DNA from: Brachionus manjavacas
Taxonomy: Eukaryota > Rotifera > Eurotatoria > Ploima > Brachionidae
Direction: 5' to 3'
DNA length: 64,000 nucleotides
NCBI GenBank assembly: GCA_019054805.1
Contig: JAHQIY010000006.1
Location: 6,200,001 to 6,264,000 of the forward strand
A program made the translations under genes and the position numbers. Below, piece by piece: positions 28,446 through 57,825 of this stretch. How positions within the stretch are numbered: position 1 is the first letter of the stretch; each line of letters begins with the position of its first letter. The notes under the pieces are model-generated. The model was not told where the DNA came from, did not search any database, and saw only the letters and a list, made by a program, of their open reading frames with translations.

Positions 28446-29362
28446 TATTTATGCAAAATTTAGTTAAATTCGGTCAATAGGAGCATTGTTTTTTTTCTTG
28501 TCAATATTTTGAGCATTCTCATTTAGCACCTTTGATAAAAATTTATAAGTGTGAATTTTAGGTTTTAAAGCTTTTCTGAAAATAAAAAATAATTTATCAT
28601 TTTTGTTGAAAAATTTTCTTGAATTATTTAACTGAATTATTTCTTCAGAAAAATCAGGAATTAAGAATCAATCTCTATAAGTAATTTCCCAGGCACATTT
28701 TTCAAGATTCAAATCAAATTTCTATCTAAAAAAGTCGACATGATCGTTATAAAGCTTGTCATAATCAATCATTTTAAATTTAATCAAAAGAAAAATCTTT
28801 TAATATCGAATAAAATGCTGAAGACAAAAGCTGTCAATTTTAGTCCGATTCAAGGACTTATGACAAGAAGATTAGCAATAAAAGCATTAAAAGTGCGTTT
28901 AGATTTTAAAATAAATTACAAGAAAAATGTTGTGTCAATGAACAAAAAGAATCTTGTTTTGAGAAAAAATGCGCTATGTTTCGACTACGTGTAACTTAAT
29001 GAAATTAGTCATTCGACTTGAGAAAGAATAAATCATGCCATTATTATTTCTAATTAAAGTTACTACAGCAATCGACAAAATCATCCAGCTTTTAATAAAA
29101 AATCTTTCGATAATTTTAATAAATTTTTTTTTGCAACACATTTACATTTTTGTTTTGTTCAATTAGATCTAGCAATTAAAAATTTCAATCAAAAATACAA
29201 AATTAAGCTTCTTATGTAAGCTAGTTTTTAAAGTGGCAAACAAAAATTTTTTTCTTCTATTTTCAAAATTTACTAAATCATACAAAAAGTGTCTTTTGGG
29301 GAGCATTTTTTGACACGTGTCTTTTAATTAATTTAAAAAGTTTGAGAATTTAGGTACAAAAA
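28446..29362. other. Spacer upstream of fatty acid synthase
   Basis: No credible gene; the frame at 28740-28994 (Lys-rich, 84 codons) has no recognised motif. The last bases before the synthase ATG include an acceptor-like TTTAG at 29349-29353. Confidence 0.45.
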
Positions 29363-32300
29363 ATGACTGAGACAAATCGAGAGGCCGATTCGGATCAAAT
29401 TGTAATCTCAGGTATTTCGGGCCGCTACCCACAGTCCAGCAACATTGACGAGTTTGCCAAAAATTTGTTCGATGGAGTGGACATGGTGACCGAGACGGAC
29501 CGGAGATGGCCGCCAGGTCTCTACGGCCTGCCGCGGCGAAACGGCACCCTCAATGACATATCTAAATTTGACGCGCAATTTTTCGGCGTCAACCCCAAGC
29601 AAGCAGACCAAATGGACCCTCAGCTAAGAATGCTGCTCGAAGTGGCCTACGAGGCCATATTCGACTCGGGCATCAGCCCCACAGAGCTCACAGGGACCAG
29701 GACCGGAGTTTACATCGGGGTTAGCTCGTCCGAAGCACTCTACGCCTATTCACACAATCCATCTGAGCTTTCTGGCTACTCAATGACCGGGTGCGCGTCC
29801 AGCATGCTCGCCAACCGCCTTTCTTTCTTTTTTGACTTCAAAGGCCCCAGCTACACAGTCGACACTGCTTGCTCGTCAAGTCTTGTCGCTCTGGATGCCG
29901 CTGTTCAGTCCATTAAGTCAGGCTACTGTGACTACGCGATTGTTGGCGGCGCCAATTTGCTCACAAGACCTCAAACTTCGCTGCAGTTTCAGCGCCTAGG
30001 CATGCTCTCACCGGACGGCATGTGCAAGTCGTTTGACTCAACTGGCAAGGGATATGTTCGCAGTGAGACTGTGTCAGTGGCTTTCATCCAAAAAAAGTCC
30101 ACTTGCCGCAAATACTACGCCAAGATAATCAACTCAAGAGTGAATACAGATGGAGCCAAAGAGCAGGGCATCACTTTTCCCAATGGCCAAGTCCAAGCTC
30201 GTCTACTAGAAGAACTATACACTCAGTGTAGAATAGATCCAAGAATGGTTAGTTATGTGGAAGCGCACGGAACTGGCACCAAAGCTGGCGACCCCCAAGA
30301 GCTGAACGCAATAGCTGATGTATTTGGCAAAAATAGGACTAGTCCATTGCTGATCGGCTCCACAAAGTCAAACATGGGACATCCTGAGCCTGCCTCTGGC
30401 CTAGCAGCCTTGTCGAAAATTTTAATTTCTGTCCAGAGTGGAATCGTCCCGGCAAATCTTCATTTCAAAGAGCCCAATGCGCAAATTGCCGCCTTGCTAG
30501 ACGGAAGACTCAAAGTTGTCGACAAAAACATGAAGCTAAATGAAGGGCTGATAGGCCTGAATTCTTTTGGCTTTGGCGGTGCCAATGCTCATTTGTTGAT
30601 TGAGCCAAATTGGGAGCAGGAACAAAATTTGTGGTCAGAGAAGAGCTATGTGAATGAAGTGAGCCGAAAAGTGAGACTGTTTCAGTTTAGCTCGCGCACC
30701 GAACAAGGCTTGAACGAAATTTTAGATTTGGTCGAGCAGTCAGGCGATTTGGCGCTCAGCTGTATCCTGGAGCCTTTGTCACTTCAATCGCCACATTCCT
30801 TCCGGGCATTCACCATTCTGAATGGAAAAAATCAAATTAGAGAGTTCAATAATGGCCACAAAGAGAAAAGGCCGGTTTGGTATGTTTTCTCAGGCATGGG
30901 CACCCAATGGACTGGCATGGGCCGAGAACTAATGGAGATCGAAACGTTCCGCCAGTCCATTCAACGATCAGCTCTCATCCTAGAGCCATTTGGTTTGGAC
31001 CTAGCACAAATCATAAATTGTGCTGATTCGGACACATTCAAGCGAACATTGAACTCGTTTGTGGGCATCGCTTCGATTCAGATCGCGTTGGTTGATTGTC
31101 TAAACCAGTTGGAAATAAGGCCAGATGGTATTTTAGGCCATTCGGTGGGAGAACTTGGCTGCGCCTATGCAGACGGATGCCTCACTCACGAAGAGACTTT
31201 GCTGGCCGCGTTCTACAGAGGCAAGTGTATTGAAGAGGCCACTTTGCCGCCGGGCGCAATGGCTGCTGTTGGACTCACTTGGGCTGAGTGCAAACAAAGG
31301 TGCCCTCAAGGTGTAGTTGCCGCTTGCCACAATTCCCGAGACACGGTCACTGTTTCCGGGCCAAAAGAGCTTGTTCAGCAATTTGTGCAGCAGTTGAAAT
31401 CAGAAGGAGTCTTTGCCAGAGATGTGGACTCTTCCAATGTGGCCTTTCATTCCCACTACATGTGTCAAATAGCTCCCAAGTTGAAAGAGTATCTAAATAA
31501 AGTGATCAAAGAGCCGCGTCTCAGGTCGAACAAATGGATTTCTTCGTCAATAGAGGAGAAAAATTGGCACTCGCAATTGTGCAAGTATTCGTCAGCCGAC
31601 TACCATGTTAACAACTTGTGCAGTGCTGTTTTGTTCCAAGAGGCGCTCAGTCATGTGCCTGAAAATGCTATCGCCATCGAAATAGCTCCGCACGCACTCC
31701 TGCAGGCCGTTCTCAAGCGGTCTCTTAGCAAAGACAACATTTTCATAGGCCTATTGAACAAAAATGCTGCAAATCAGATGGAGAATTTCTATGCCCAACT
31801 GGGCCGTCTCTATCTGCACGGAGTAGATTTTAGGCCCACAAGACTTTTGATTGCCAAAAAATGGCAAAATGCACTGTACCCCATTCCCGTGAAGACAAAA
31901 TTTTTGTCACCACTCATGAAATGGGACCATGGTCACTCGTGGAACGTACCTAAATACACAGACTTTACTTCTCAGGGAAACAGCTGTGCGTCTTCTACGG
32001 AGGCTAGTAATTTCAACTATGTGATAGATCTAGAAGGTGATAATGCATATTTGAGTGGACACCAAATTGACGGAAGAGTGCTCTATCCAGCCACTGGCTA
32101 TCTTTGTTTAGTGTGGCAAAGTATGGCCAAAATGGCTCAGAGCAAACGTCTTGGCATGATCGATGACACCAATCTAGTCTTGCCCGGCATTCTATTCCAA
32201 AATGTGGAAATACACCGAGCTTCTATTTTGAAAGTGGGAGAAAAAATAACTTTTCAGGTGAATTTGATGACCACTAGTGGTTCGTTCGAGTTGACAGAAG

Positions 32301-35300
32301 GTGGTAATTTGGTGGTGAGTGGTCAAGTGAGACTTTTGGATGAAAAAATTGACACTGACCAAGCCAGTCAAATGAACGCTCTCGACGCATTGTCAACAAT
32401 AAAGAGAACAGACAGCATGGTTAGAGAGGAGGTTTATAAAGAGCTGAGACTTCGGGGCTACGAGTACAAGGACCAGTTTCAGCCTATCGAAAAGTGTGAC
32501 CTGAATGGAACTATGGGCTTGTTGAAATGGGACGGCAATTGGGTACCATTTTTGGATGCCATGCTTCAAATGAACGTGCTCGGACACCAAAGAGGACTTT
32601 TGCTGCCGACCAGAATCCGCACCATCCAAATAGATCCAGAACAACATGTGAATCTAGTCGAAAATTGCAGCGTACCAGTCGTGTTCGATCCGCACACCAA
32701 GACTACAACTAGTGGCGCTGCTCAAATAGTTGGTCTCCACGCAACCGTAGCTCCCAAGCGACAAGTCTTCCAGCCCACCATAATAGAACATGTCAATTTT
32801 GTGCCCTATTTGGACGATGTGAACAACAACATGGTTCAACTAGGCCAAGAAGAAGAAACCAAGCAAGATCAAGTGAGAAAGTACATTAAAAAATGCTGTT
32901 CGCCAGCAAGCGAACATGAGGGTCATGAGTCAGCATCGTTGATTCAATTTTTGGCCTCTCAAAGCAACAATGGACTGGAATTTTTGAAAGCATTCACCCA
33001 AGACAAAACACTGAACATAACTAGTCGCAGAATGGACCATTTCAAAGTTTTAGTTGACATTTTCTTTGAAAATTTGCAGCCCAGACCAAAAAACCAAAAA
33101 ATTCGACTTTTGGAAATATGCAGCTCAATGTGCTACTCGATGTGTCCCAGTCTGGCCAATTTGCTGCGCTCTCATCCGAGCACATGCGATCAAATCGAAA
33201 TTGGCTATGCTCAAATTGAAAATGTGTGCCATGTGGAGGCGCAGTTTTTCGACCAAATCAGCTCGGACTCGTTGTTCAAGATGGAAAGAATAGAGTGGAA
33301 AATGAGCCGAGACAATAGCTTGATCACCGATGTACCTTCCACAATTGGACACTTTGACCTGGTCATTCTTAACAATTCAGATTTGGGCAAGTACAAAAAT
33401 GTGCGCTCATGGGCGCAGAATACTTTGACCAAGTTGACGCACAATTTTGTTCTGCTAATAGAGGACTTTGTTGACGAGAGCGCATTCAAGCAATTAATTG
33501 CCAATTTGGAGCATACTGCTCTGAAAAAAGAGCCCAGCACGCCATGTCCACTTGACTTGGAGCTGATGCAGACGCTTGGTGTGACAAAATTGAGCGAGCG
33601 GTGCGCGTTTGCCGAGCAGAGTCTATGGCGATTTGGCAACAAATACCAGAATAGCTGCTTTGTGGACACGGACAATTTGGTCGAGTTGAATTGGCTGGAC
33701 GAGATCAAATCAAGCCTGAGCGATCCAACTATTGACCGGGTATTTTTGCTCAGTCAACGGGAAACAAGCGGCTTGGTCGGCTTGGTCAATTGTCTGAGAA
33801 AAGAAACCAATGGTCACAAAATAAGATGTGTGCTTGGCAAAAGTCTAGACCAAGTACCACAAAGCATATTGGACAGTGATCTAGTGATGAACGTGTACAG
33901 AGACAATGAATGGGGCTCGCTTAGACACGTGGTCACCGATGCACAAAATTTGCTCATCAACTCCGAAAAAGACTTGTTCAATGGTCAATTTAGCGCGGAC
34001 GAACACAATTTGTGCGTCAACTCGATGCAACGCGGTGACCTGGCCTCGCTGCGATGGATCCAGTCGGCCCAACCGGTCGCCTCACACGCTCAGCATGTCA
34101 TTTGCCAAGTGGCCTATGCAGCGCTTAATTTTCGCGACATTATGCTCGCTACTGGCAAGCTGAGTCCCGAGGCCATTCCAAACTACCACAAGATGCAGGA
34201 CAATCTGCTCGGCATGGAGTTTAGTGGTCACGTTGACGGACAAAAGTGCATGGGCATCGTGTCAGCTCGCGGCCTCTCCACTCAAGTTGTGCTCGACAAA
34301 AATTATCTGTGGCAAGTGCCACAAGACTGGAGTTTGTCCGATGCGGCCACAGTACCGGTCGCCTATTCAACCGCCTACTACGCGCTGTGTGTGCGCGCCA
34401 AGCTGAAGCGAGGCGAGTCCGTGCTGGTACACGCCGGGTCGGGTGCTGTTGGACAGGCGGCCATTAGCATTGCGCTCAGCTTTGACTGTCAGGTATTTGC
34501 CACTGTTTCTTCGGACCAGAAGCGAGAATATCTCAGGTCTCGCTTCGACAATCGGCTTTCGTTTGCCAACTCGCGTGACCTAACATTCGAAAAGCATGTA
34601 ATGAAGGAAACGCGAGGCCGCGGCGTCGACATCATTCTGAACTCTTTGTCCGAGCAGAAATTGCAGGCATCTTTGCGCGTTCTTGCCGAGCATGGACGCT
34701 TTCTAGAGATCGGAAAGTTCGATCTGAACAAAAACTCGTCTCTTGGCATGTCCGTGTTTCTCAAAAACATCAGCTTTCATGGCATACTCCTAGACTCGTT
34801 GTTCGACAAGTCAAGTGACCACGAATGGAAGACAGTGCACAGCTTGGTACAGAATGGAATCAAAAGCGGAGTGGTCAAGCCCTTGAACTCGACAATATTT
34901 GCCAAGGATCAAATCGAACAGGCCTTCAGATACATGGCGCAGGGAAAACACATCGGAAAAGTTCTAGTCAGCTGTGCAGCAAAGCAAGCTGGCGTCGAAG
35001 CCTTGGCCAAAGTGTGGTTCACACCGGACCAAAGCTACATAATCACAGGAGGCCTGGGCGGCTTCGGTCTCGAGCTAGCCGAGTGGCTGGTCGAGCGCGG
35101 AGCCCGCAATTTGGTCCTGACATCTCGGTCGGGCATCCGCACCGGATACCAGACCCGCAAACTGAACATGCTCAAACAAGAGTACACTGCCAATGTTCAA
35201 GTGCTCGGCTATGATGTCAAGATTTTGTCCGAATGTGAGCTATTGATCCAGAGCGCTGCACAGATGAGCAAAAGTGGAAAAATTGGCGGAATTTTTCACC

Positions 35301-36910
35301 TGGCCGCACTGCTCCAGGATGCCCTGCTCGAGAATCAAAGCGCCGAAAAATTCAAAAAAGTCATTGGCATAAAATATGAAGGCGCGCTCAATTTGGACAC
35401 ATTGAGCCGCAGCTGCGAGGTGATGGACGACAAGGCTTACTTTGTGGTCTTTTCGTCAGTGACTAGTGGTCGTGGCAACATTGGTCAGTCGAACTATGGC
35501 TATGCCAATTCGGCTATGGAAAGAATTTGCGAGAGAAGAAAAATGGGGGGAAAAAATGCGCTCGCCATTCAATGGGGAGCTATTGGTGACGTTGGCCTGG
35601 TTGTTGAATCCCACATGAACGGCTCAAACGAGACTGTAGTCGGTGGCACTCTTCCGCAGCGCATCTACGGCTGTCTCAAAACACTAGAGCATCTTTTGCT
35701 CAAGAGCAATACGGAACAGTGCGCCACTTGGTCTAGCTTTGTGCCCGCGTTTGCTGGCGCTGACAAACAGAGCAAAAAGTCAAACACAGAAAAAAGCCTG
35801 GTGGAAACAGTGGCCAACATTATGGGAATCAAGGACCTGAGGCAAATTCGCAACGAAAAGCAAAGTTTGGCCGAAATGGGCCTAGATTCGCTGATGAGCG
35901 TGGAAATTAAGCAAATATTGGAGCAAGGCTACAACATCAATTTGAATATGAAAGAAATTCAGGCGTTGAGTATAGAAAAGTTGAAGAATATGCAGCATGC
36001 GGCACCGGCTGAGGAGCCAAAATTGGCCACAGTGCAGAATGTTTTAGTCAAAGAAACAAAAATGTTGATGCCATCCGAAATGTTTGTCAAACTAAACGAG
36101 CTAGATGATGATGAAAAATGTGTTTTTGTAATTCATCCGATTGAGGGCCATGTGCAAATGTTGAGAGAGTTCGGACAAAAAATGAAGTCCCATGTGTATG
36201 GTATTCAATTTACCAAAGAGGCCATTGAGCTCACCAGCTTGCCACAACTGGCCCAACTCTACTGGACGGAGATAGAAAAAGTCAAAGGCGCTCACACAAG
36301 AATAAACTTGTGTGGCTATTCGTTTGGGGCATCGGTGGCCTTTGAGATGGCCCTACAGAAAACGGAGCGCATCCGCACATTGACTTTACTTGACGGCTCG
36401 CATTCCTATGTGAATGTGCAGGTGAATGCGTACAAGACCAAGCTGCAACTTGGCAACTCGGCTGAGACCGAGTCCGAGGCTTTGTTCACGTTCTACCAGC
36501 AATTTGGACAAGTCGAGTCCAGAACTGAGTTTATCAAAAATTTGTCATCTATGAAAACTTTTGAGAGTAGAGTTAAATTTGTGGTCGAAAGCTTGATGCA
36601 GAATTCCAACTACAAATTTGATCCTGTTGATGCGGAAATGGCTGCCAGGGCATTTGTTCTCAAACTTATGATGTCCTTTGGGTATGAGCCGAAAGAAAAG
36701 TTGAGGATGGAGCGACTATTGCTGATCAAGTCTGAATCTCAGACTAATTTGATTTCAAATATTCAAGCACTTCTTGGCACTGACTATGGGCTGAGCAAAG
36801 TGTTTGAAGGAACAGTGGATGTAAAAACAGTGAGTGGCGATCACAAGACATTTTTGCAAGGCAATAATGTTTCGGAAGTGGTCGAGCTTGTTGAGTCGAG
36901 TTTTTGTTAG
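29363..36910 (+). CDS. FASN: Type I fatty acid synthase, animal type
   Basis: Cytosolic multienzyme that builds long-chain saturated fatty acid from acetyl- and malonyl-CoA with NADPH. One uninterrupted frame of 2515 codons, the usual length for animal FAS. Domains in order: ketoacyl synthase (VDTACSSS, active Cys about residue 170; VEAHGTGT and KSNMGHPEP His motifs); malonyl/acetyl transferase (LGHSVGELG, Ser about 594); dehydratase (HQIDGRVLYP, His about 900, with FLDAMLQ later); degenerate methyltransferase region; enoyl reductase (VHAGSGAVGQAA near 1690); ketoreductase (GGLGGFGLELAEW near 1895; SNYGYANSAMER); acyl carrier protein (MGLDSLMS, phosphopantetheine Ser about 2176); thioesterase (CGYSFGASVAF, Ser about 2319; SGDHKTF His about 2492). 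All catalytic residues I could check are present. It has no introns although neighbours do, and its GC content is clearly higher than the surrounding DNA. Confidence 0.97.
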   Translation: MTETNREADSDQIVISGISGRYPQSSNIDEFAKNLFDGVDMVTETDRRWPPGLYGLPRRNGTLNDISKFDAQFFGVNPKQADQMDPQLRMLLEVAYEAIFDSGISPTELTGTRTGVYIGVSSSEALYAYSHNPSELSGYSMTGCASSMLANRLSFFFDFKGPSYTVDTACSSSLVALDAAVQSIKSGYCDYAIVGGANLLTRPQTSLQFQRLGMLSPDGMCKSFDSTGKGYVRSETVSVAFIQKKSTCRKYYAKIINSRVNTDGAKEQGITFPNGQVQARLLEELYTQCRIDPRMVSYVEAHGTGTKAGDPQELNAIADVFGKNRTSPLLIGSTKSNMGHPEPASGLAALSKILISVQSGIVPANLHFKEPNAQIAALLDGRLKVVDKNMKLNEGLIGLNSFGFGGANAHLLIEPNWEQEQNLWSEKSYVNEVSRKVRLFQFSSRTEQGLNEILDLVEQSGDLALSCILEPLSLQSPHSFRAFTILNGKNQIREFNNGHKEKRPVWYVFSGMGTQWTGMGRELMEIETFRQSIQRSALILEPFGLDLAQIINCADSDTFKRTLNSFVGIASIQIALVDCLNQLEIRPDGILGHSVGELGCAYADGCLTHEETLLAAFYRGKCIEEATLPPGAMAAVGLTWAECKQRCPQGVVAACHNSRDTVTVSGPKELVQQFVQQLKSEGVFARDVDSSNVAFHSHYMCQIAPKLKEYLNKVIKEPRLRSNKWISSSIEEKNWHSQLCKYSSADYHVNNLCSAVLFQEALSHVPENAIAIEIAPHALLQAVLKRSLSKDNIFIGLLNKNAANQMENFYAQLGRLYLHGVDFRPTRLLIAKKWQNALYPIPVKTKFLSPLMKWDHGHSWNVPKYTDFTSQGNSCASSTEASNFNYVIDLEGDNAYLSGHQIDGRVLYPATGYLCLVWQSMAKMAQSKRLGMIDDTNLVLPGILFQNVEIHRASILKVGEKITFQVNLMTTSGSFELTEGGNLVVSGQVRLLDEKIDTDQASQMNALDALSTIKRTDSMVREEVYKELRLRGYEYKDQFQPIEKCDLNGTMGLLKWDGNWVPFLDAMLQMNVLGHQRGLLLPTRIRTIQIDPEQHVNLVENCSVPVVFDPHTKTTTSGAAQIVGLHATVAPKRQVFQPTIIEHVNFVPYLDDVNNNMVQLGQEEETKQDQVRKYIKKCCSPASEHEGHESASLIQFLASQSNNGLEFLKAFTQDKTLNITSRRMDHFKVLVDIFFENLQPRPKNQKIRLLEICSSMCYSMCPSLANLLRSHPSTCDQIEIGYAQIENVCHVEAQFFDQISSDSLFKMERIEWKMSRDNSLITDVPSTIGHFDLVILNNSDLGKYKNVRSWAQNTLTKLTHNFVLLIEDFVDESAFKQLIANLEHTALKKEPSTPCPLDLELMQTLGVTKLSERCAFAEQSLWRFGNKYQNSCFVDTDNLVELNWLDEIKSSLSDPTIDRVFLLSQRETSGLVGLVNCLRKETNGHKIRCVLGKSLDQVPQSILDSDLVMNVYRDNEWGSLRHVVTDAQNLLINSEKDLFNGQFSADEHNLCVNSMQRGDLASLRWIQSAQPVASHAQHVICQVAYAALNFRDIMLATGKLSPEAIPNYHKMQDNLLGMEFSGHVDGQKCMGIVSARGLSTQVVLDKNYLWQVPQDWSLSDAATVPVAYSTAYYALCVRAKLKRGESVLVHAGSGAVGQAAISIALSFDCQVFATVSSDQKREYLRSRFDNRLSFANSRDLTFEKHVMKETRGRGVDIILNSLSEQKLQASLRVLAEHGRFLEIGKFDLNKNSSLGMSVFLKNISFHGILLDSLFDKSSDHEWKTVHSLVQNGIKSGVVKPLNSTIFAKDQIEQAFRYMAQGKHIGKVLVSCAAKQAGVEALAKVWFTPDQSYIITGGLGGFGLELAEWLVERGARNLVLTSRSGIRTGYQTRKLNMLKQEYTANVQVLGYDVKILSECELLIQSAAQMSKSGKIGGIFHLAALLQDALLENQSAEKFKKVIGIKYEGALNLDTLSRSCEVMDDKAYFVVFSSVTSGRGNIGQSNYGYANSAMERICERRKMGGKNALAIQWGAIGDVGLVVESHMNGSNETVVGGTLPQRIYGCLKTLEHLLLKSNTEQCATWSSFVPAFAGADKQSKKSNTEKSLVETVANIMGIKDLRQIRNEKQSLAEMGLDSLMSVEIKQILEQGYNINLNMKEIQALSIEKLKNMQHAAPAEEPKLATVQNVLVKETKMLMPSEMFVKLNELDDDEKCVFVIHPIEGHVQMLREFGQKMKSHVYGIQFTKEAIELTSLPQLAQLYWTEIEKVKGAHTRINLCGYSFGASVAFEMALQKTERIRTLTLLDGSHSYVNVQVNAYKTKLQLGNSAETESEALFTFYQQFGQVESRTEFIKNLSSMKTFESRVKFVVESLMQNSNYKFDPVDAEMAARAFVLKLMMSFGYEPKEKLRMERLLLIKSESQTNLISNIQALLGTDYGLSKVFEGTVDVKTVSGDHKTFLQGNNVSEVVELVESSFC

Positions 36911-37740: not shown

Positions 37741-37880
37741 AGTGTTGGATACGGTCAAAATCAAACTTGTTTCTAAGTCACAGTTTTAAAAACACAGTCA
37801 CAGTCACAAAAATTTAAGTCAAAGTCATGACTTAATTTTTTTTTATTAAGTTAAAGCCAATGTCTTAAAAATTTTTTTCA
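37741..37880. repeat. Possible single end of a hAT-like element
   Basis: TAGTGTTGGATACGGTC at 37741 resembles the TAGTGTTGG terminus of the MITE at 24570. It is followed by repeated CACAGTCACAG and AAGTCA motifs like hAT subterminal repeats. No partner end was found downstream. Confidence 0.35.
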
Positions 37881-38314
37881 TTTTTTTTGTGAAGTTTAGT
37901 CGAGTCAGCATATTTTCTCATTTTAAAACTAAACTTTTTTTGGATTAAAATAAAAAATCATATTTATTTTTAAGTTTAAAAATCAGATAATTATGTTAGC
38001 GGCTTATCACAGTAATGAGAAGCTGGAATGCTACACAGTCTCTCTGGAGAAAATAATAATTAAAAGTCCTTAGTTTAAGTGTTAGTAACTTAATTGTTGC
38101 TAGTAGTTGTTACTTCATTAATAAAATAAAATAGAATAAATACAAAATGTTGCTAAGCCTAATTTATAACTGATAAGAAATACTCTTCGTATAAATGGAC
38201 CAAGACTTTTGGATAAATGTGTGTGTGTTCTTAAACTTGAATTTTGATAAAACATTTTACTAAATTCTTAAAAAAGCACTTTTCACTCTTTTATTATGAG
38301 CACTAACAAGTCGT
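37881..38314. other. Spacer left of the palindrome
   Basis: No coding block or repeat recognised. The minus-strand vezatin-like frame of the left arm runs into it as a short unrelated tail (KRLVSAHNKRVKSAFLRI) before a stop. Confidence 0.4.
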
Positions 38315-38879
38315 TTCAAAGATAATTCGATCAAATCGCTGTGTTTTATAAAAACAAAAATTTTTTTAGCTTCCTGAAGATACTTGAGCGATAAATTAAG
38401 CCAAATTAGAAGAAATTTAGTAATTATTTGATATCTAAAAAGTTAGTATAAAAAAAGGAAAATAATGGAAATAAAAATTGGAATACTCAGGGCACTAATG
38501 GACAATAAAAGAAAAAAGAGATGAAAAAAATGTTTATGATAGCAGATTGACCGTATAAAGCTAAAGTCTTCTAAGCTTTGTATAAATTTGAGATTTTCTT
38601 TGATAATGACTTGATTGTCCCAGTCGGAAATTGATTCATTAAAAATTTCTCGATTATTATGAACTAATTCGATTAAAAATTCCGAGTTAAATAGGTAAGC
38701 TACAGGGTGAAATTTTGAAAAGTTTAAATTTTGAACAGGTCGGGATGTTAAAGCTTCATTTTTTCATTTTTTTTATCAAATTCTTTAAGCTCATTAAAGT
38801 CGTCATCATAACCAAGGCTATGTAAGTAATCACTCACAACTTTATTTGATATCTCATAGTCTTCTTCAGCGTATTCCAT
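38315..38879 (-). pseudogene. Partial vezatin copy in the left arm
   Basis: Starts at the ATG 38877-38879 with the same residues as the intact gene (MEYAEEDYEISNKVV). One A is missing in an A-run near 38760, so the frame ends at KKNEKMKL. The rest, including the membrane hairpin, matches until 38315, where similarity stops. A truncated, frameshifted duplicate of the gene at 42894-44684. Confidence 0.85.
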
Positions 38880-39618
38880 TTTTAAAATTAAAATTATAAA
38901 ACCAAAAACTACTATTATATCAAATATTTTAGCAGAAAATAAAATTTCTCTTAACAAAAACTCAAATTTGTAAATAACATAAAAGAGGTTGTGCATATTT
39001 AATGGGAAAATTCGCTCCCTAGACCATCCCATGTTTATGCCCATATTATATATCATTTTGAAGGTCATCATTTTAGGATCATAAAAAAATATGTTTTACG
39101 TAAATAAAAGTTTGGGGCCATGAGATATAAGAGCTTAAAGACTACCAACTCTAAATATTAAAAATATAAAAAAACGTATTAAAATAAGGACTATGACGAT
39201 ATGAGTGCTGAAAAAATATTCGTCTTGTATAAAATTTTATGCTCTGTAAGATAAAGCCATTAAGGAAAAACTAAATAAAAAAATGAGGTTTTTTTGAAAG
39301 ATTTTGATATTAAATAGTATATTTATATTTTTTATATTTTCAATATGGCCCCAAATTTAAATTATTATTTATTAAAATTAATATAATATTTTCTTTAAAT
39401 TTTTAAAATTACATGTTTTTTAGTGATTTATCTTCAATTATAAGTGATTTTCTTGCTTAAACACCGAAAATTTCTCGAGATCATAGTTAACAAATTTTGG
39501 GTTATAAAAAAGACGATTTTTTCTATTTATAATTAAAAAAAAAGAGAGATAGTTTAATAATATTTTTATTTAATTCCAAAATATAAAAGCAAAGATCAAC
39601 AGAATTTATTGATTGATT

Positions 39619-40319
39619 TTAAATTACTCGATTAGTATTTCTATCATCAATTTCAATAAACTTGTTACATATGTAATATATACCTTTAAAATGATTACGA
39701 CTAGCTTTAAAATTACAACAAAGAAATCGATATGTTTGAGATTCTATTTCTAATGTCATTTTAGGTCCTTTTTCTAAACTAACTGTAAAATTATGGCTCG
39801 TTTCAATCAACAAAAAAGGGGGTAAAGTTTGAAATCTACTTAAATTATTGTAATAATAGCCACAAAAGTTACATTTAGACTCATTTTTTAGTATATTTAC
39901 CATTAATGAATTATTATCGTTTTCAAAAAGTAACATAACACCATTACTTTGATGATTTCCGCGACAAGACACTTTACCACAACCGTTTGAAATATATCTT
40001 TGAAAATTTTCCAAATGTTTCCCAAAAAATTGATATGCTGATCCGAAACAATCGATTTCATATCGATTGTTTGTTAAATTCAGAACTGGAATAGCTTTTC
40101 ATACATCAATAAGCCAAATTTTTTTTGCTTCGTCCCATTTTTCATTCTCTATTTCTGCTATAACTTCTTTGATTTTGTTTGCGACTGTTTGAAAAGAACT
40201 TGTGTCTAAAGCTCTTACAAAATTAGGAGACACATTTGATGCAATCCATAAGCCTAAAAGAAAGTAATCAAAAGAACAAGTATTAATAAATTCTATTTGT
40301 TGTCCTTTAACATTTATTT
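39619..40319 (-). pseudogene. Ubiquitin-hydrolase-like domain, left-arm copy
   Basis: Mirror image of 41455-42153 with the same in-frame TGA (40099-40101). On this side the frame continues a little past the arm boundary with stops. See the right-arm copy for the domain reading. Confidence 0.55.
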
Positions 40320-40349
40320 ATGCACTTAAACTATCGGAGGTTCAATATA

Positions 40350-40590
40350 AAGTTGAGATCCGTACAAGCAGACACTTAACCGGCCAAAATTTTCAGAAAC
40401 CTTGACCGTGTCCGCATTAACCGGCCAACTTTTTGGCAGGCGGTCATTTGACCGGTCAGCTAGGCGGTCTTATTTTTGGACCGCCAAAATAAACGGCCTA
40501 AGATATACGGACGGTCTGAAAAACGGCCTAAAAAATACGGACGGTAAAAAATAAAAGCGGTCAAAAATACTGTCAAAGAGAATGTTTTTT
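40350..40590. mobile_element. GC-richer repeat built from CGGCC/CGGTC motifs
   Basis: Contains AACCGGCCAA twice, GGCGGTC, ACGGCCTAA and GGACGGT repeats. The motif vocabulary is that of the MITE at 24570-24874, but termini are not clear. It occupies the spacer of the palindrome and is absent from the right arm. Confidence 0.5.
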
Positions 40591-40599
40591 TTTTTAATT

Positions 40600-41403
40600 G
40601 TTTATTTATTATTTAAATAGACTTTGAGTAATGAAACTCCTTTAGCTATTTTTCATATATTAAAATGAAAGTGAAACAAATATAAGGTATTACAAAATTG
40701 GGTATACAATATTTAAAAACCATATAGAAAAATGGGAATATAAAGAAAGGGAAGCTTCTATGCAATTGAAAGATTTGGCTGTTGTAAGACACTCCCATGG
40801 AAATTCATGCACAAAAATTGCTAAGGGAGACTTTTTTTCAGGTTCTCTTGAGCTCTCAACAAAAACATCCTCATAGTCCTTTATGAGTGATAAAATTAGC
40901 TCATTTTTGAAGAGAAAACAGTTTTTAACATATCTTATAAAGAGTTTTTTAAATCTGATTTTGATTGTGTCAATTTTTTGATTTTCAAGAAAAAAAAAGA
41001 AGATTTCTGAGGGTGCTTCATATGAGAGGTGATGAATCGCCTTATATGATATATTTTGGAGTACTTGTAATTTATGAAAATTAGTATTTGAAGCTAAACT
41101 AAATATGAAGAAGCTGTAATCAATTAAAGACCCTATTAGAGGATTATAAATACCCGATAGAGTTTTTTTATTTAAATTCCAAGATTTGTGTGAAAGAATT
41201 TTAATTATATTTATCCTGTCTTGACATCTTGATCGAATAAGTTTAATATGTGGTTTAAAGCATAAGTTTTCGTCAAATTTTATTCCAAGAAAGATTGGAC
41301 AGTTAGTATATGGAATTTGCTTACCGAAAAGACTTAAATTTAGCTTTTGATTTTTGGAGGGATTTCCAGAAAAGATTGTATAATTGCATTTTTCAGGAGA
41401 CAT
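40600..41403 (-). mobile_element. 5'-truncated Jockey/I-group LINE in the palindrome spacer
   Basis: Frame 41403-40690 (237 codons) begins after the palm: MSPEKCNYTIFSGNPSKN, then FLGIKFDENLCFKPH, SWNLNKKTLSGIYNPL and IDYSFFIFSLAS, HKLQVLQNISYKAIHHLS. The last part matches the relic at 2.66 kb closely. The catalytic domain is missing. A run of ten G at 41441-41450 separates its 5' side from the right palindrome arm. Confidence 0.8.
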
Positions 41404-41452
41404 CTTAAGCCTCCTTTTTTTTAAAACAAATTACAAAATTGGGGGGGGGGTC

Positions 41453-43465
41453 AAATAAATGTTAAAGAACAACAAATAGAATTTATTAATACTTGTTCTT
41501 TTGATTACTTTCTTTTAGGCTTATGGATTGCATCAAATGTGTCTCCTAATTTTGTAAGAGCTTTAGACACAAGTTCTTTTCAAACAGTCGCAAACAAAAT
41601 CAAAGAAGTTATAGCAGAAATAGAGAATGAAAAATGGGACGAAGCAAAAAAAATTTGGCTTATTGATGTATGAAAAGCTATTCCAGTTCTGAATTTAACA
41701 AACAATCGATATGAAATCGATTGTTTCGGATCAGCATATCAATTTTTTGGGAAACATTTGGAAAATTTTCAAAGATATATTTCAAACGGTTGTGGTAAAG
41801 TGTCTTGTCGCGGAAATCATCAAAGTAATGGTGTTATGTTACTTTTTGAAAACGATAATAATTCATTAATGGTAAATATACTAAAAAATGAGTCTAAATG
41901 TAACTTTTGTGGCTATTATTACAATAATTTAAGTAGATTTCAAACTTTACCCCCTTTTTTGTTGATTGAAACGAGCCATAATTTTACAGTTAGTTTAGAA
42001 AAAGGACCTAAAATGACATTAGAAATAGAATCTCAAACATATCGATTTCTTTGTTGTAATTTTAAAGCTAGTCGTAATCATTTTAAAGGTATATATTACA
42101 TATGTAACAAGTTTATTGAAATTGATGATAGAAATACTAATCGAGTAATTTAAAATCAATCAATAAATTCTGTTGATCTTTGCTTTTATATTTTGGAATT
42201 AAATAAAAATATTATTAAACTATCTCTCTTTTTTTTAATTATAAATAGAAAAAATCGTCTTTTTTATAACCCAAAATTTGTTAACTATGATCTCGAGAAA
42301 TTTTCGGTGTTTAAGCAAGAAAATCACTTATAATTGAAGATAAATCACTAAAAAACATGTAATTTTAAAAATTTAAAGAAAATATTATATTAATTTTAAT
42401 AAATAATAATTTAAATTTGGGGCCATATTGAAAATATAAAAAATATAAATATACTATTTAATATCAAAATCTTTCAAAAAAACCTCATTTTTTTATTTAG
42501 TTTTTCCTTAATGGCTTTATCTTACAGAGCATAAAATTTTATACAAGAAGAATATTTTTTTCAGCACTCATATCGTCATAGTCCTTATTTTAATACGTTT
42601 TTTTTATATTTTTAATATTTAGAGTTGGTAGTCTTTAAGCTCTTATATCTCATGGCCCCAAACTTTTATTTACGTAAAACATATTTTTTTATGATCCTAA
42701 AATGATGACCTTCAAAATGATATATAATATGGGCATAAACATGGGATGGTCTAGGGAGCGAATTTTCCCATTAAATATGCACAACCTCTTTTATGTTATT
42801 TACAAATTTGAGTTTTTGTTAAGAGAAATTTTATTTTCTGCTAAAATATTTGATATAATAGTAGTTTTTGGTTTTATAATTTTAATTTTAAAAATGGAAT
42901 ACGCTGAAGAAGACTATGAGATATCAAATAAAGTTGTGAGTGATTACTTACATAGCCTTGGTTATGATGACGACTTTAATGAGCTTAAAGAATTTGATAA
43001 AAAAAATGAAAAAAATGAAGCTTTAACATCCCGACCTGTTCAAAATTTAAACTTTTCAAAATTTCACCCTGTAGCTTACCTATTTAACTCGGAATTTTTA
43101 ATCGAATTAGTTCATAATAATCGAGAAATTTTTAATGAATCAATTTCCGACTGGGACAATCAAGTCATTATCAATGAAAATCTCAAATTTATACAAAGCT
43201 TAGAAGACTTTAGCTTTATACGGTCAATCTGCTATCATAAACATTTTTTTTTCATCTCTTTTTTTCTTTTATTGTCCATTAGTGCCCTGAGTATTCCAAT
43301 TTTTATTTCCATTATTTTCCTTTTTTTTATACTAACTTTTTTTAGATATCAAATAATTACTAAATTTCTTCTAATTTGGCTTAATTTATCGCTCAAGTAT
43401 CTTCAGGAAGCTAAAAAAATTTTTGTTTTTATAAAACACAGCGATTTGATCGAATTATCTTTGAA
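41453..43465 (+). repeat. Right arm of the 2-kb inverted repeat
   Basis: Inverted match to 38315-40319. The spacer between the arms is about 1.13 kb. The right edge lies inside the vezatin coding sequence, so this arm includes the gene's first 190 or so codons and about 1.4 kb upstream. Confidence 0.9.
41455..42153 (+). pseudogene. Transposon-associated ubiquitin-hydrolase-like domain
   Basis: Open except for a TGA at 41671-41673. Reads QQIEFINTCSFDYFLLGLWI (candidate catalytic Cys), WDEAKKIWLIDV, then after the stop IDCFGSAYQFFGK, KCNFCG, LPPFLLIETS and FKASRNHFKGIYYICNKFIE (candidate His) ending in IDD. This order resembles the USP/UCH-like domains found beside animal DNA transposons. The start is lost at the arm boundary. 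A 131-codon frame (41758-42153) stays open, but with the Cys half cut off it is unlikely to be an enzyme. Confidence 0.5.
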
Positions 43466-44684
43466 TAGAAGGCATTTTACTTCTAAATCAGACATTAATT
43501 TTGTTTTTCGAAAGAACATTTTTCTAATTCTAAGAAAAAATTTCTATCAACTAAAAAAAATTAATCTTGGGCTATTAAACAACATTGAGCAAGATTGGCA
43601 GCATTTTATTTGCTCAATAAATGATTCAGATTTGAGCCCAGTGATGAGAATTAATGGTCCAGAGCTTGACGAGTTAACTGATAATTATAGTCATGGCTGT
43701 GTAAATTCAATAATTAAACTAAACTCTCTTTTGATATCAGAAAATTTTAAGTTAATTATTTTGAAGTTTTTCTTTTTATTTAAAAATAGTTCTGATTTTT
43801 TCAAATTTTGTATTTTGGCAGTAAATTCAGTATTTGGGATACATAAATTTGTCAAACAATTAAAAAAGTCTGACAAATTAAGTAAATTGATTGATTTAGA
43901 GGAGACCTCGAGGAAAGTCCGGGTTGATCCATTAAAGAATGAAGATAACCTAATAATGTATTTAAGATCATGTCTTCTCAATTCCTTTGACTTAAAAAAT
44001 CAGAGAGAAAATCAAGCTATAGCAGAGAAAACAAAGCTTATCAGAATGGGACTAGAATGCTGTAATTTGTATCTAGAGCAAATTGAGACCACTCTAGGCT
44101 TGGAAGTTCCAAAAACCAAAGTTTCTCAACCATCACCGAATAAGCCTGAATCCGAAAATTTTGCCACACTTCAAGAAATTATCCCTGAAAATCAAGAGCT
44201 GATTTTTGAGGATGAAATATTCGAAGCAGAGAATGATCCGAACAGTGTGGCAAAAGAAAAGCTCAAAATTGTTGAACCGGAAGAACTGAGTCTAAAAGAA
44301 AAACAGGAATTACTAAATGCTAAAAATTTATTTTATGAGTTGAAATATGCTCTAAAATGGAAGACTAATGAGTGGAAGGAGAGAGAAAAACGGGCCAAGC
44401 ATGTTAATGATAGAATACCGGGTGAAATAAGCGAATTCGGAATGAGGGAAGAAAATCATCTTTTGGATAACGATATTTTAATTTATAAATCAAGATTAAA
44501 AAAGAGGACAGATTTAAAGTCGGAATTGAAGCAATTTCAAGAAAAAAAAAGCAAATATTCTAATGATAAAAATTGGGAAAATTATCGCAGTGAGTCACAT
44601 AGCTCCATTTTATCTGATATTATGGCAAAAAGAAATAAATTAATGTGTCGATGTGATGATAGTGAGGAAATTTTTGGTGATTAA
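42894..44684 (+). CDS. VEZT: Vezatin-like membrane protein
   Basis: Vezatin is an adherens-junction membrane protein that links cadherin-catenin complexes to myosin VIIA. The chosen start ATG 42894 gives 596 aa; the frame is open upstream to an ATG at 42702, but only from 42894 does the N-terminus look like vezatin (acidic, then YLHSLGYDDDF, comparable to YLQDLGHTDFE in the vertebrate protein). A two-pass hydrophobic hairpin (FFISFFLLLSISALSIPIFI onward) lies at about residues 112-147, followed by a long helical region. The C-terminal block ENQELIFEDEIFEAEND, then LFYELKYALKWKTNEWKERE, matches the conserved vezatin motif EEQELEAYVDD..LQELKSVLGFK. Single exon here. Its first third is duplicated in inverted orientation at 38315-38879. 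Confidence 0.75.
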   Translation: MEYAEEDYEISNKVVSDYLHSLGYDDDFNELKEFDKKNEKNEALTSRPVQNLNFSKFHPVAYLFNSEFLIELVHNNREIFNESISDWDNQVIINENLKFIQSLEDFSFIRSICYHKHFFFISFFLLLSISALSIPIFISIIFLFFILTFFRYQIITKFLLIWLNLSLKYLQEAKKIFVFIKHSDLIELSLNRRHFTSKSDINFVFRKNIFLILRKNFYQLKKINLGLLNNIEQDWQHFICSINDSDLSPVMRINGPELDELTDNYSHGCVNSIIKLNSLLISENFKLIILKFFFLFKNSSDFFKFCILAVNSVFGIHKFVKQLKKSDKLSKLIDLEETSRKVRVDPLKNEDNLIMYLRSCLLNSFDLKNQRENQAIAEKTKLIRMGLECCNLYLEQIETTLGLEVPKTKVSQPSPNKPESENFATLQEIIPENQELIFEDEIFEAENDPNSVAKEKLKIVEPEELSLKEKQELLNAKNLFYELKYALKWKTNEWKEREKRAKHVNDRIPGEISEFGMREENHLLDNDILIYKSRLKKRTDLKSELKQFQEKKSKYSNDKNWENYRSESHSSILSDIMAKRNKLMCRCDDSEEIFGD

Positions 44685-45704: not shown

Positions 45705-48569
45705 TTAGAAAATGATAAATCTTTTGCTTTTTTTATTTAAATTTTCTTCTTTTTGCTGGATTTCTTTGACTTGTGTATCAGATAATTTGTCTGGGTTGTT
45801 TAAAACAAATCCTCCTTTGCTGTTCTCAACCTGTTCTTTGCACGAATCGTACCAATGTTTGATTTTACTATGCGTCATCATATCTTCAAACGCTGGACAG
45901 CCTTCATATGAAGAAATAGCTCCATATAGTGCCTTTTAAAATGATAGTTTTTAATTCAATAAAAAAAATTATGTGTCCTAAAAATTAACTCATTTTTTCG
46001 ACAATACAACTAATATAAACTAAAATTAGAATAATCAAAATATTGGTACCCTTTTGGTTAATTAAAATTGTAAAAAATTAAATTCAAGATTGATTTTTTG
46101 AATTGTTCAAAATAAACTCTTTGAAAATAAATTTTAAACCTCCTTTTTGGGAATTATCAGTTTTATCTATTTAACGATTTTCGACTTTATTGTAAATTGA
46201 TTACGAGAGGCATATCTTCAATTATTTTATTTTATTTTTTTATTGAAGTCGTTTCAAATCTCCTGAATATTTTTTTTCTTGATCCCATGATGAACCAAAA
46301 ATTTACTATATTGGCAATAATTCTGAAATGAATCTCAATTGTTTAGTATCTCATCAACAATGTATCGGCTTTGTGAATTTTTATATAAAAATTCGAATAA
46401 AAATTTAAATTCTTAATAAAAATATGATTTTGTATTTCAGATTTTTCTGTAAGCTTTAAGATGCGAAATAAACAATGTTTTATTTAACTGTCCAGTTTAA
46501 AGGAAAGATAAAAAAATTCTTGTCAGTAAATTAAAATTGAAAATTAGAATTAAAAAAAAAATTTTTTCAATTAAAACCACCTAATTCAAAATTATTTAAT
46601 TAAAGATGACAGAATTTTAAAATTTAAATAAAATAAATTTACAAATTGCAAAAAAAAATCGAATTAGAAAAGATCATAGAGACAAAAAAATGAAATCTCA
46701 AAATATCTCAGAATTATATTTGGTCATTAATATTTTGCTGTTAATTTAAATTAATTTTTAATTGTTGAATTTAGTGAAGCATATTTTGCTTCATGTTATT
46801 ACATCATTTAAGCTCAACTTTGTCAACTCAATTAATGAAAAAGAATTTTATTTTTCTAATGGAAGGTTTATATAAAAATTCACACTGGTCAGTATATTAA
46901 AATAAAAAAGAAGTATTTATTTAATGTTTAATAATTATTAGTCAACTAAAATTTATCAAAGACTGTTCAGTATAGTGACATAATACTTGCATTTGTTATA
47001 CATGAAAAATTATTTTTTTTAAACAAAGTAAGAAAATTTCCCAAGCTATTTGAAAAAAATCTTAGTTCTTCTTTTTAGTCGATTTACTGATTTTAAAATT
47101 AATTTTTTACTCTTAATAAAGTAAAGAGAAAAATAAATCTCAAAATGTAATTTACATTTTCATTAAAAATTTTTTCAATATTAATTTTTTTTCATTTATA
47201 TAACTTATAAATCTTTAACCAGGAGGAAACAATTAATTCGCAATATTTAAAACATTTACCAAGTCAGATAGGTTCGGTCTGGATCCTCCCATGAAAGTGC
47301 CTCTCAAAGAATTAACCCATTCATCGCACATTTCGTACATGGAAACTCTTACATCTTCTTTTAAATTGTACCTTAGATAAAATTTAACAACAATAAATTA
47401 AATTTGTAAATCCACTACTTTCTTTTGAGACTTTTTCCCAAAATAAACATGACAGCTGATCCTATGTACTTAATGCATGATCGTTGAAAATCTGAAAAAT
47501 TATTTTTCCAATCTCCGACTTGGTCATACCAATTGAATGCGGCCAAAGTTTCGTTCATGGTTCGATAAACATTTGGAGATATTACATGAATGAATTTTGA
47601 ATCGACCCATTTTCGCCAATCTCTCTCATCTCTTTTGAAAAAAAAAATTTTCCTTCCATTTTCTTTAAATTCTTCAATGATTACTTTCTTTCGCTGACAT
47701 CTTTTCCATCAGTCATTTTTTCCGAGTGAAGCATCACGAAATACTTGTTCACAAATTCCGTCGATTTATTTTTCTCACCAGAATCAACTTCTATCGGTTC
47801 ATAATATTTAACTATTTGAGCCAAAGGAGTACTTGGGTCTAATCGCAGGGTCTCCAAAGCACTTACAATGACCGATGATTCATTCAGTTGCTAAACAAAC
47901 ACTTAAGATAAATAATTTTAATTTTTAAATTTACTAGAATTTCAGGATCAAGCTCGTCCGGATTTGTTTTAGAGGGACATTGAATGGCCAAAGTTGGAAC
48001 TTTTTTATAACCAGACCAGTCCAATTGTGACTTGTTAATTGAATTTACTTCGACTATGTCATAGCTGTATCCATAATAGTCCAAATAAGCTCTTACTTTG
48101 CAGCAAAATGGACAAGTCACGTACTGATACAAAGTTATTTTTATATTTCCAGGATTTTTTCCTCGATTTAACTTAAATTAAAATGGAAATAAAATTTCAA
48201 AGATTGAATTATTTAAATTACTGATCTAGAAGGATTTATTTTTCCAGGTAGATTGCTGCTTTGATAATTAATTTCAAAGCTAGGAGAATTAGACTTTCTA
48301 TTTTCCAAATAATAAGATATTGAAAAGTATGCCAGAGCACCACTTGCAAACACCACCAGTAATTTTTTTAATGAATTGTCTTTTTCTGCCGGTAATTGTG
48401 TGTTTTTATTCAAAGGAGCCTTAGTGTTTGCATTTTGAGGAGTCTCAGATGAGTTGAGACGTTTCGGTGTGAAAATAAGCCGGGAGTCTGTTTTTAAGCT
48501 GAAATAAGTTGTTTGAAATGGTTTGAAAGATCGATAAGTTCGGCGGGTTTGATTTAAAAACTTGAACAT
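45705..48569 (-). CDS. PTGES2: Prostaglandin E synthase 2-like protein, paralog B
   Basis: Glutathione-dependent membrane enzyme family that converts PGH2 to PGE2 in mammals. Six exons: 48222-48569, 47935-48171, 47685-47890, 47419-47631, 47260-47371, 45705-45932. All junctions are GT..AG with phases 0,0,2,2,0; total 447 aa. Introns are 44-54 nt except the last, 1327 nt. N-terminal Arg/Ser-rich leader and membrane segment (LLVVFASGALAYFSISYYL), then the glutaredoxin-like site VTCPFCCKVRAYLDYYGY (CPFC about 136-139), LNESSVIVSALETL, the family signature HVISPNVYRTMNETLAAFNW, and the GST-like C-terminus ending LYGAISSYEGCPAFEDMM and HWY. The two Cys of CxxC are present. The ATG is preceded by TTTTTTTAG two bases upstream. 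Confidence 0.9.
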
Positions 48570-49784
48570 GACTAAAAAAAGAATAAAAAATTTAAAAATT
48601 TTGATTCAAAAAAATTTTAATTTATTAATAAAAAATTCTAAAATTTTAAAATAAATTTCTCAGATTGAATTTAGTATCGATTCTGAGCTATCAATTTAAG
48701 AATACTCGGATCGATAAGGCAAAGATTGAGAGTAAATTTTCTTAACACTTTAAAAATATATCTAAGGTGTTTTTTTTTAAATTTTTTTAATTTTAATTTA
48801 TTAATTATTTTTTCAAAAATTCAGTGTTTTGTATTTATGAATGGACTCGCCAAAAGAATCAACATCTTTGACTTTATAACTATTAAGTCTTATTTTGGAT
48901 CTTTTTAGAAAAATTAATAATTTCTTTTAATAATTTTTTTGTCTTTTTTTTTTTGTTATTTTAATAAAATAAAATAGATATAAATTAGATGATTGAATTT
49001 TGTTGACACTGCGACTATTCTAAGTCACCAAATGAAATTCTTTTAATTAAGTAAAAAAAAATCTTTGAAAATTTTGGAGTAAAAGTTTAAAACAAAAGGG
49101 AATTTTAAAATTGCTTGAAAAGATTCCAGAAAAATTTTTAGAAACTAGAATCATTTAGAAATAAAAGCTTCACTTTTTTTCTTATAAAAATTTAAATTTA
49201 AATTTCTGATCTTCGACTAAAAATTTATTATTCTTTAATAAAAAATTATTCACAGAGATTTTCTAAAGTGCATTTTCATAATAATTATAATATTTTCAAA
49301 TTTCTTTCGTTTCTATTACGTCTACTGTGATCAGATAATTCACAAAATCAAGGAAACTTAGGTCGCAAGCTGACTGATGAACAATTTGCAGAAAACAAAA
49401 AAAGGTAATCGCTTTTTTTTTACAAATGAAAATCCAATATTTATTCCAGCACCAGTAATTTAAATTTAAAAAAAAAAAAATTCATTCCTTAGTAATTTTA
49501 TAATTATTAATAAATAAACTTTTACTTTAATTTACTTTACTAGTTTATAAATAGTTAAGATAATATTTATTACAAGATTTATAATTTTTTTTCTTAAACT
49601 TAATTGAAATTTTGTTGTTAACTGATAAATCAATTAATGCATAATTAAAAAAAACTGTATCAGTAATTGCATTATGACCTGCAAATACTAGATAATAAAT
49701 GAATTGAAAATAAAAGAAAAATTATTTTTATTCTAAAATTTTAATAAATTAAATTTCTAAAAATAATAACAATGCTTAACAAAA
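48570..49784. other. Interval between the PTGES2 paralogs
   Basis: AT-rich. One exon-like plus-strand stretch is listed separately at 49335-49404. The open frame at 48726-48908 has no support. Confidence 0.4.
49335..49404 (+). other. Exon-like stretch, unidentified
   Basis: Bounded by GATCAG (acceptor) and AAAAAG|GTAATC (donor). It encodes NSQNQGNLGRKLTDEQFAEN, unusually balanced for this DNA. No neighbouring exons could be joined. Confidence 0.25.
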
Positions 49785-51412
49785 CTATTTATTCATATAT
49801 GTAGCGTAGGCAAATGCACAAACATGAATTAAATATGTGGCCGACAAGATTCTGAAGATAATTTTTTCATTATCTGCAGTATTAGAAGAAATTTCATCCA
49901 TTTTCGGTATGTCTTCTTCTATTTTCTTATCTTTTTTTTCATCAACTAAAATTTTTTTTTCAAAATCATCATCAAAGTTTTCTATTAAAATTGGCATCGA
50001 ATTTTTGCTGGATCTTTTGTAGCCTTTCAGAATCTCTTGGTTCATTCTTTCATACCATTGTCGAAATCTAGGGTATCTGGCTATTGACTCCCGAAATACA
50101 GTACAACCTTCGTATGCTCGAACATTTCCATACATGCTCTAAATTGATTATATATACATATATATACAAAATATAATTTTCAATAAAATTTTACAATATC
50201 AGCCAAATTAGGACTATCTTTTCCACTGATAAATTTTTTTTCATTAAGACCCTCTTCCCATTGTGTCAACATCCGGTCTAAAAGATCCTTTGGTGTTTTG
50301 CCTTGGTCTTCAACATCCCTGAAAGATGAGTTTTTCTTTTAACCTAAACATTTCAATTTAATAGAAATACATACAGTCTATTGATTAACGATGGCTGTTT
50401 CTTATAAGCTTTATATACATTGAAGTAGTATACAATGTAGTATTTAATCGAGTTGTAGCGGCTTTTCCAGCAGCTTTTTTCCGAAATCAGATCAAATTTT
50501 TCAAACAAATTTTTAAAACTATCAACAGAGTTTAAATTAAAGACTGGAATGGCAAAATTGTTTATCCACTTTCTCCATTCAATAGAGCTTTTGAAAAATA
50601 ATAATTTTATAAACAATTTTAATTTTAGTTTTACTTTAAATCAGAGTTGGTAGTCGAATATTTATTTGGACTAGATGTTCCAGTCTCTCTGAGAATAGGC
50701 AAATATTTGTCCAAAATGTCATTAAAATTAATATGTTTTTCATCGCGTACACTTTCTAGTGCACTTAGAATAGCAGTGGCGTTTGCCAGATGCCATTTTT
50801 TTTTGCTAATTTTGTCTTCTAAGACCAAAATTGGAAGTTTTCTCGCTTTTGTAAATTTAGTCAATTCCTCTTTGGAATATGAGTCAACTTCAGTGAGTCT
50901 ATAAGTAAATCCGAAATAATCCAAATAGGCTCTTATCTGAGAGCAGTATGGGCAATTTTCGAATTGATAAAGATGAAGGGTTAATGGAAAATTGTTATAT
51001 GGTGATTTGTGGTATTCGACCTTTACCAAAAATTAAATATTCTACTCATTTCAAAATTTTAATTTACAATTTTTGTGGGAACAAATTCAGTGACTAACGC
51101 CAGAGATCTAATCTCTTCATTGGGATCATCAGGTTTTTTGACAAAGGTTTTTACTAAAAGAGAACCCGAAACCAAGCCGGCTGAAAGACTGATTCCGACT
51201 ATGAGTGAATAATTAACTCCTTTGCCTATTTTTTGAACTAGTGTTGATTTAAGGCGATTTTGCGGATCGAATTTTTTCGGTATTTGGAAAATTTTGACGC
51301 GGTTCTTTGCATTGGCCAAAGTCACCAGGTTTTTGTTGGACTTATGCATACAAGGTGTTTGTAGAGCCAATTTGAAAATGCTGTGAGCGGCTTTGGAGTG
51401 AAGTGGTGACAT
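49785..51412 (-). CDS. PTGES2: Prostaglandin E synthase 2-like protein, paralog A
   Basis: Tandem paralog of the gene at 45705-48569. Five exons: 51068-51412, 50635-51020, 50375-50587, 50195-50318, 49785-50138; introns 47, 47, 56 and 56 nt; phases 0,2,2,0; 473 aa. Start is ATG 51410-51412, five bases after an acceptor-like TTTTAG. Leader plus membrane segment (SLIVGISLSAGLVSGSLLV), glutaredoxin-like site FENCPYCSQIRAYLDYFGF (CPYC about 138-141), LANATAILSALESV, then the more diverged WRKWINNFAIPVFNL where paralog B keeps ISPNVYRT, and the C-terminal MYGNVRAYEGCTVF with FRQWYERM. It adds an acidic linker and a second hydrophobic tail (ILSATYLIHVCAFAYATYM) absent from paralog B. Intron positions match B except that B has one extra intron inside the thioredoxin-like domain. 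Confidence 0.87.
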
Positions 51413-51960
51413 GTTGACTAAAATAATCACATAAAATTAATGAGATTTGATTCGATTGATGTTGAGAGATTGGAAAAGGTTTATTTTTACATCATGACGC
51501 TTGATGCGAGTTATGGCAAAATTTGAAAATTTTAAATTATGCTAAAAATGCTATGTAATTTACAAAGAAATTTTTCTAGTGCAATCTTAACTTCAAAAAG
51601 TATTAATTTTTTTTATTAAAATTAAGGCGACTATTTTAGATCAATTATATTAAACTGAAAAAAGTTGTCTTATTCAGCTAGAATTCTTTTTAAAAAATCG
51701 AATTTTTTAATAAAACATTATTCTCGTAATTATGCTTGAAAAATTTTATAAAAAAGATTTTTAATTTTAAATGAAATCAAAAGAGAAATTGATTTGGTTT
51801 AAGTTCTTAAAAATAATCTCTAGTAAAAACAATGTTCCATTTTTATCTAAAACGATTTAAATAATTTTTTTAAAATTACTATTAAAAATTAATAACATTA
51901 AATTTTTTTCTTTAAAGAAATTGATTGAGATCAACACTTTAATTTTAACACATTAAATTA
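51413..51960. other. Upstream region of PTGES2 paralog A
   Basis: AT-rich, no gene seen; presumably includes its promoter. Confidence 0.4.
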
Positions 51961-57725: not shown

Positions 57726-57825
57726 TTAGATTTAGATGGTCTAAAATTAATTATTGATATAAAAAGTTTTTTTAGCTAAATATTTGTTTCAATTAGCTAT
57801 CAAAGAAATAAAATAGTTACTCATA

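Follow-up and report, generated by a model that had tools for sequence, protein, structure and literature searches.

A palindrome with near-identical 2-kb arms at a vezatin-like gene of Brachionus manjavacas, probably formed by recent inverted duplication

The closest described systems to the locus reported here are the hairpin RNA (hpRNA) loci of Drosophila and the inverted duplications ascribed to fold-back or template switching. In the passages of the source cited here, hpRNAs generally seem to be derived from duplications of their own targets (PMC10292708), and the same passages report that the Nmy and Tmy loci were misassembled in earlier genomes. RNA-dependent RNA polymerases (RdRPs) have been reported from chelicerates (PMC5805368) and, in the section cited, from all Acari studied (PMC7659050). 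In the rotifer B. manjavacas we describe a palindrome that has, as hpRNA loci do, a long inverted repeat with near-perfect arms, each arm being complementary over 572 nt to the gene that would be its target.

The window, meaning the whole stretch of 64,000 nucleotides that was analysed, lies in contig C6 of a genome that was searched over 114,169,980 bases in 61 contigs. Aligned locally, the left arm (38315-40319) and the reverse-complemented right arm (41453-43465) agree in 2001 columns and differ by 3 substitutions and by 8 gap runs totalling 10 columns (10 nt), all eight runs lying in A or T homopolymers. The 5-kb palindrome with near-identical 2-kb arms that the sequence-only reading had proposed is therefore recovered with exact coordinates, as is its 1.13-kb spacer, which measures 1,133 bp (40320-41452) and holds the announced LINE, here the 3' part of a minus-strand element, and G+C-rich repeat. 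Among the window's listed inverted pairs of 120 bp or longer, those other than the palindrome are at most 94% alike, in contrast with the near-identical arms of the palindrome, whose likeness over 2 kb is not due to chance. The features of the locus are as follows.

37760..37993, plus strand: fragment of an older repeat, R2, interrupted by insertion of an LTR at GATAATTA
37994..38315, plus strand: LTR directed towards the palindrome, the final 15 bp missing, with TATAAA at 38190
38315..40319, minus strand: left arm, 41453-43465 copied in inverted orientation, with coding part, flank of 105 bp and transposon part
40320..40348, no strand: about 29 nt between the left arm and the MITE-like repeat
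40349..40571, plus strand: G+C-rich MITE-like repeat, its right end cut short (edge approximate)
40585..41440, minus strand: LINE fragment, the 3' part including the poly-A tail, whose cut 5' edge meets the transposon (edge approximate)
41430..42788, plus strand: truncated DNA transposon with its outer end ...CACAACCTC at 42788 (inner edge approximate)
41453..43465, plus strand: right arm, the putative parental copy, from the arm alignment
42894..44684, plus strand: intact vezatin-like frame of 596 codons, the first ~190 of them in the right arm

Read from the inside outwards, each arm consists of ~1.33 kb of a DNA transposon, a flank of 105 bp and the start of a gene (~190 codons, the 572 nt with which the intact frame begins). 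The right arm runs on into this frame, uninterrupted over 596 codons from the ATG at 42894 to 44684. In the left-arm copy, translation from the corresponding ATG (38879) ends after 43 codons, and the edge of the arm at 38315 is the position of codon ~190. When the protein of the gene was used as a genome query, it matched only itself and the left-arm copy (3 match rows from 5 scored candidates), and a parental second copy elsewhere was rejected on this ground. These results agree with the sequence-only reading in that the 5' part of the gene is duplicated, one arm feeding an intact frame and the other ending within the coding copy.

The same reading had called the gene vezatin. The human vezatin (VEZT) sequence with which we compared it is an approximate query. 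A 616-residue part of this sequence aligns weakly with the protein in several collinear pieces (best E 0.043). The global score against the full approximate sequence, -9, lies above all 400 local-composition shuffles (mean -76, sd 21) and all 400 full shuffles. Speaking against the name, the local score is equalled by 35 of 400 local-composition shuffles and by 5 of 400 full ones. By eye, the protein also resembles vezatin in having a hydrophobic segment and, after it, a long region rich in charged residues. It differs in that the vezatin family of Pfam (PF12632) has no match in the 668-residue frame at E values up to 1, and the approximate human sequence, as a genome query, missed the gene and gave a sole match elsewhere (E 1.59). 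A six-frame search of the genome with PF12632 also returned no match, and the controls of this search were equally silent. The name is plausible, not proven, with the collinear similarity speaking for it and the Pfam and genome queries against it, and we write "vezatin-like" throughout. Other Pfam matches in the six frames of the palindrome, to FANCL_d3 (E 0.23 and 0.042) and to a RelB-like antitoxin family (E 0.13), were below the curated cut-offs and were taken as chance. No paper on vezatin in arthropods was found in one open-access literature collection, and none of the papers listed there for hairpin RNA and endo-siRNA names vezatin.

The transposon makes up about two thirds of each arm. 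Outside the locus, the genome search with this part gave 13 match rows, namely four of ~1.2-1.3 kb, three of ~1.03-1.08 kb and six shorter ones. Seven copies were fetched and aligned; the fuller ones measure ~1.6-2.0 kb, and six of the seven begin with GAGGTTGTGCATATTTA, the reverse complement of the opposite end. The closest copies elsewhere are up to 95% identical. The terminal inverted repeats of the element were considered as the cause of the palindrome and rejected, because the arms pass the element end at 42788 into gene sequence on the outer side and stop within the element on the inner side. One copy (L007, on contig C2 at ~826 kb) has a direct repeat of ~18-20 bp (TTTATTAGTCAATTCACT) on its two sides, which is long for a target-site duplication; a flanking repeat of this kind is not clearly present at the other aligned copies.

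Regarding the spacer, the G+C-rich repeat has at least 72 match rows in the genome, from 40 scored candidates and itself included, and alignment of seven copies identifies it as an inverted-repeat element. Identity of the LINE to its other copies (three aligned) reaches 98%, and by eye there is a short overlap where its cut 5' end joins the transposon. Short BLAST among the fetched loci, seven loci overlapping the window being excluded, gave no match for the ~30 nt at 40320-40351 apart from one locus that holds the same place (L038) and one 12-nt match over the arm end (L034). Beside the junction of LINE and transposon there is a run of ten G (41443-41452) where other copies have GGGGTGGG or similar, and ~33 nt adjoining this junction are more altered than the remainder of the element.

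On the left, the palindrome abuts the LTR, which shares 317-319 identities (up to 99%) with each of five fetched copies. All five run 15 nt further; at this locus the junction with the left arm therefore cuts the LTR short, and a breakpoint exactly at the LTR end, as expected of LTR-LTR recombination, was dropped for this reason. R2 continues beyond the cut in all three fetched copies, and this continuation is absent after the LTR here. Two LTR copies on contig C9 have a primer-binding-site-like stretch after one and a purine-rich stretch before the other, and a comparable pair lies on C8. In our own reading these stretches would be the primer-binding site and purine-rich tract signals that mark the direction of the LTR, which would therefore be plus, into the palindrome.

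Further to the left, an animal-type fatty acid synthase occupies one stop-free frame of 2,518 codons (29354-36910, plus strand), with domains from ketoacyl synthase to thioesterase and a G+C content of ~43-52% per kb (29-36 kb), far above that of its surroundings. To the right of the palindrome, two adjacent genes on the minus strand (47233-48605 and 50631-51436) have a glutaredoxin/GST-N-like start, according to a Pfam match for 50631-51032 in one and by eye in the other; they resemble a tandem prostaglandin-E-synthase-2-like pair. Related repeats at 27117-28452 and 57823-58952 form inverted copies, both within and between them, that are 72-94% alike.

The arms differ by 3 substitutions in 2004 aligned bases (~99.85% identity). 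Ordered by identity, the transposon (at most 95%), the LINE (at most 98%), the LTR (at most 99%) and the arms follow the order expected from which element truncates which. Two of the three substitutions lie inside the transposon, and the third, in coding sequence, was not polarised. At 42549 the left arm has the base found in all seven transposon copies, and at 41468 that of all three copies with a base at this site, the four others being gapped; at both sites the right arm is the one that changed. Five of the eight indel events affect coding sequence; there the change seems to lie on the left, given the intact frame on the right. For the three events in the transposon part, the other copies suggest that two are derived on the left and one on the right. 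As the left arm keeps the family base at both transposon sites and indels occur on both sides, the arms mutate independently.

In seven of the eight indel events the homopolymer is shorter on the left, a bias that might reflect assembly errors in such runs. The palindrome as a whole might even be an assembly artefact, since hpRNA-type loci with highly complementary repeats had been misassembled in previous genome versions of D. simulans, according to the passages cited (PMC10292708). Such an origin is very unlikely in view of the family bases retained by the left arm, which copying noise would not have produced, and of the junctions: a plain fold-back has one breakpoint, and here the arms end at two different foreign sequences, with a spacer of 1.13 kb between them.

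The near-identity of the arms could alternatively reflect gene conversion, an older palindrome having been homogenised while transposon copies across the genome came to differ by ~5% or more. This we regard as very unlikely: each arm carries changes of its own, the five coding indel events of the left arm were not transferred to the right, and the LTR cut off by the left arm is ~99% like its other copies, so that the left junction is young.

We consider a recent local inverted duplication the probable origin of the palindrome, most likely through template switching or fold-back in replication or break repair, with the left arm as a decaying pseudogene. An older DNA transposon would have been present 105 bp upstream of the vezatin-like gene, and a stretch of 2.0 kb, running from within the transposon through the 5' flank to codon ~190, would then have been copied, reversed, to the left. 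The reversed copy would have joined the interior of the LTR, with the remainder of the LTR and of R2 lost; the right arm would have remained the gene, and the left arm would have lost its frame by homopolymer indels. The structure, the near-identity of the arms, the truncation relations, the independent mutation of the arms and the loss of the left frame are directly seen. The LTR short by 15 bp and the missing rest of R2 at the left junction support a recent duplication, and the inverted copy with spacer and the two unlike outer contexts are those of a template-switch inverted duplication. A point against this mechanism is the scant microhomology, 1 bp at the LTR junction, the sole outer junction judged, and we therefore offer template switching as an inference. 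The left arm is held to be a pseudogene copy whose frame was lost through short homopolymer indels while the right arm stayed the gene; it would be without function, except as a possible source of double-stranded RNA.

Silencing of the vezatin-like gene by long double-stranded RNA, as proposed in the sequence-only reading, is anatomically possible. As the two gene copies diverge, pointing outwards from each other, promoters just upstream of either ATG would yield no hairpin, and a hairpin requires a transcript begun to the left of the left arm. From the sequence, its source could be the LTR with its TATAAA at 38190 or read-through from the fatty acid synthase frame ending at 36910. A newborn hpRNA locus would produce a plus-strand transcript spanning antisense arm, spacer and sense arm, which would fold back, be diced and lower the expression of both the gene and the transposon family. 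In keeping with this, the LTR faces the palindrome and the synthase frame ends upstream on the plus strand; the genome encodes Piwi (20 match rows), RNase III (6) and RdRP (3) domains; and precedents in D. simulans adjoin their targets, in the passages cited (PMC10317233). The matches to the cellular RdRP family are at C4:5310420, C1:7228487 and C1:7238744, two of them ~10 kb apart. We nevertheless judge such a locus unlikely, as the path of the transcript has seven AATAAA motifs in the left arm and two in the spacer, the putative LTR promoter sits in a truncated LTR, and the frame of the right-hand gene is still intact. The motifs have little meaning in an A+T-rich genome, yet they may end the transcript early.

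Unlikely, too, is a newborn self-silencing locus, in which the LTR transcript would comprise antisense arm, spacer, sense arm and gene, RdRPs could spread siRNAs past the arms, and the transposon family would be hit as well; the gene itself would then be one arm of its own silencing hairpin. A regulatory reading is the minority view against that of an ordinary young rearrangement in an interesting position. If the palindrome is transcribed, it would represent an early step in which an hpRNA locus arises from its own target, promoter and spacer being provided by mobile elements, in an RdRP-encoding animal. If it is not, it is an ordinary recent rearrangement and a clean case of the start of an inverted duplication and of the loss of frame in the spare copy.

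Compared with the hpRNA loci of Drosophila, as described in the parts of the sources cited here, the locus resembles newborn cases such as hp58 of D. simulans, beside CG17385, in being young and in consisting of a near-perfect inverted repeat that derives from an adjacent protein-coding gene and has transposon sequence nearby. It differs in that the target gene forms one of the arms, the genome encodes RdRPs, and the palindrome is known from its DNA sequence. From the fold-back and template-switch inverted duplications (MMBIR and ODIRA; PMC2621351, PMC3907307, PMC10766183), again as far as the cited parts describe them, the locus differs in its small size (2 kb) and in sharing at most 1 bp at the one outer junction judged, and it resembles them in having an inverted copy with a spacer, and foreign sequence and loss at the junctions.
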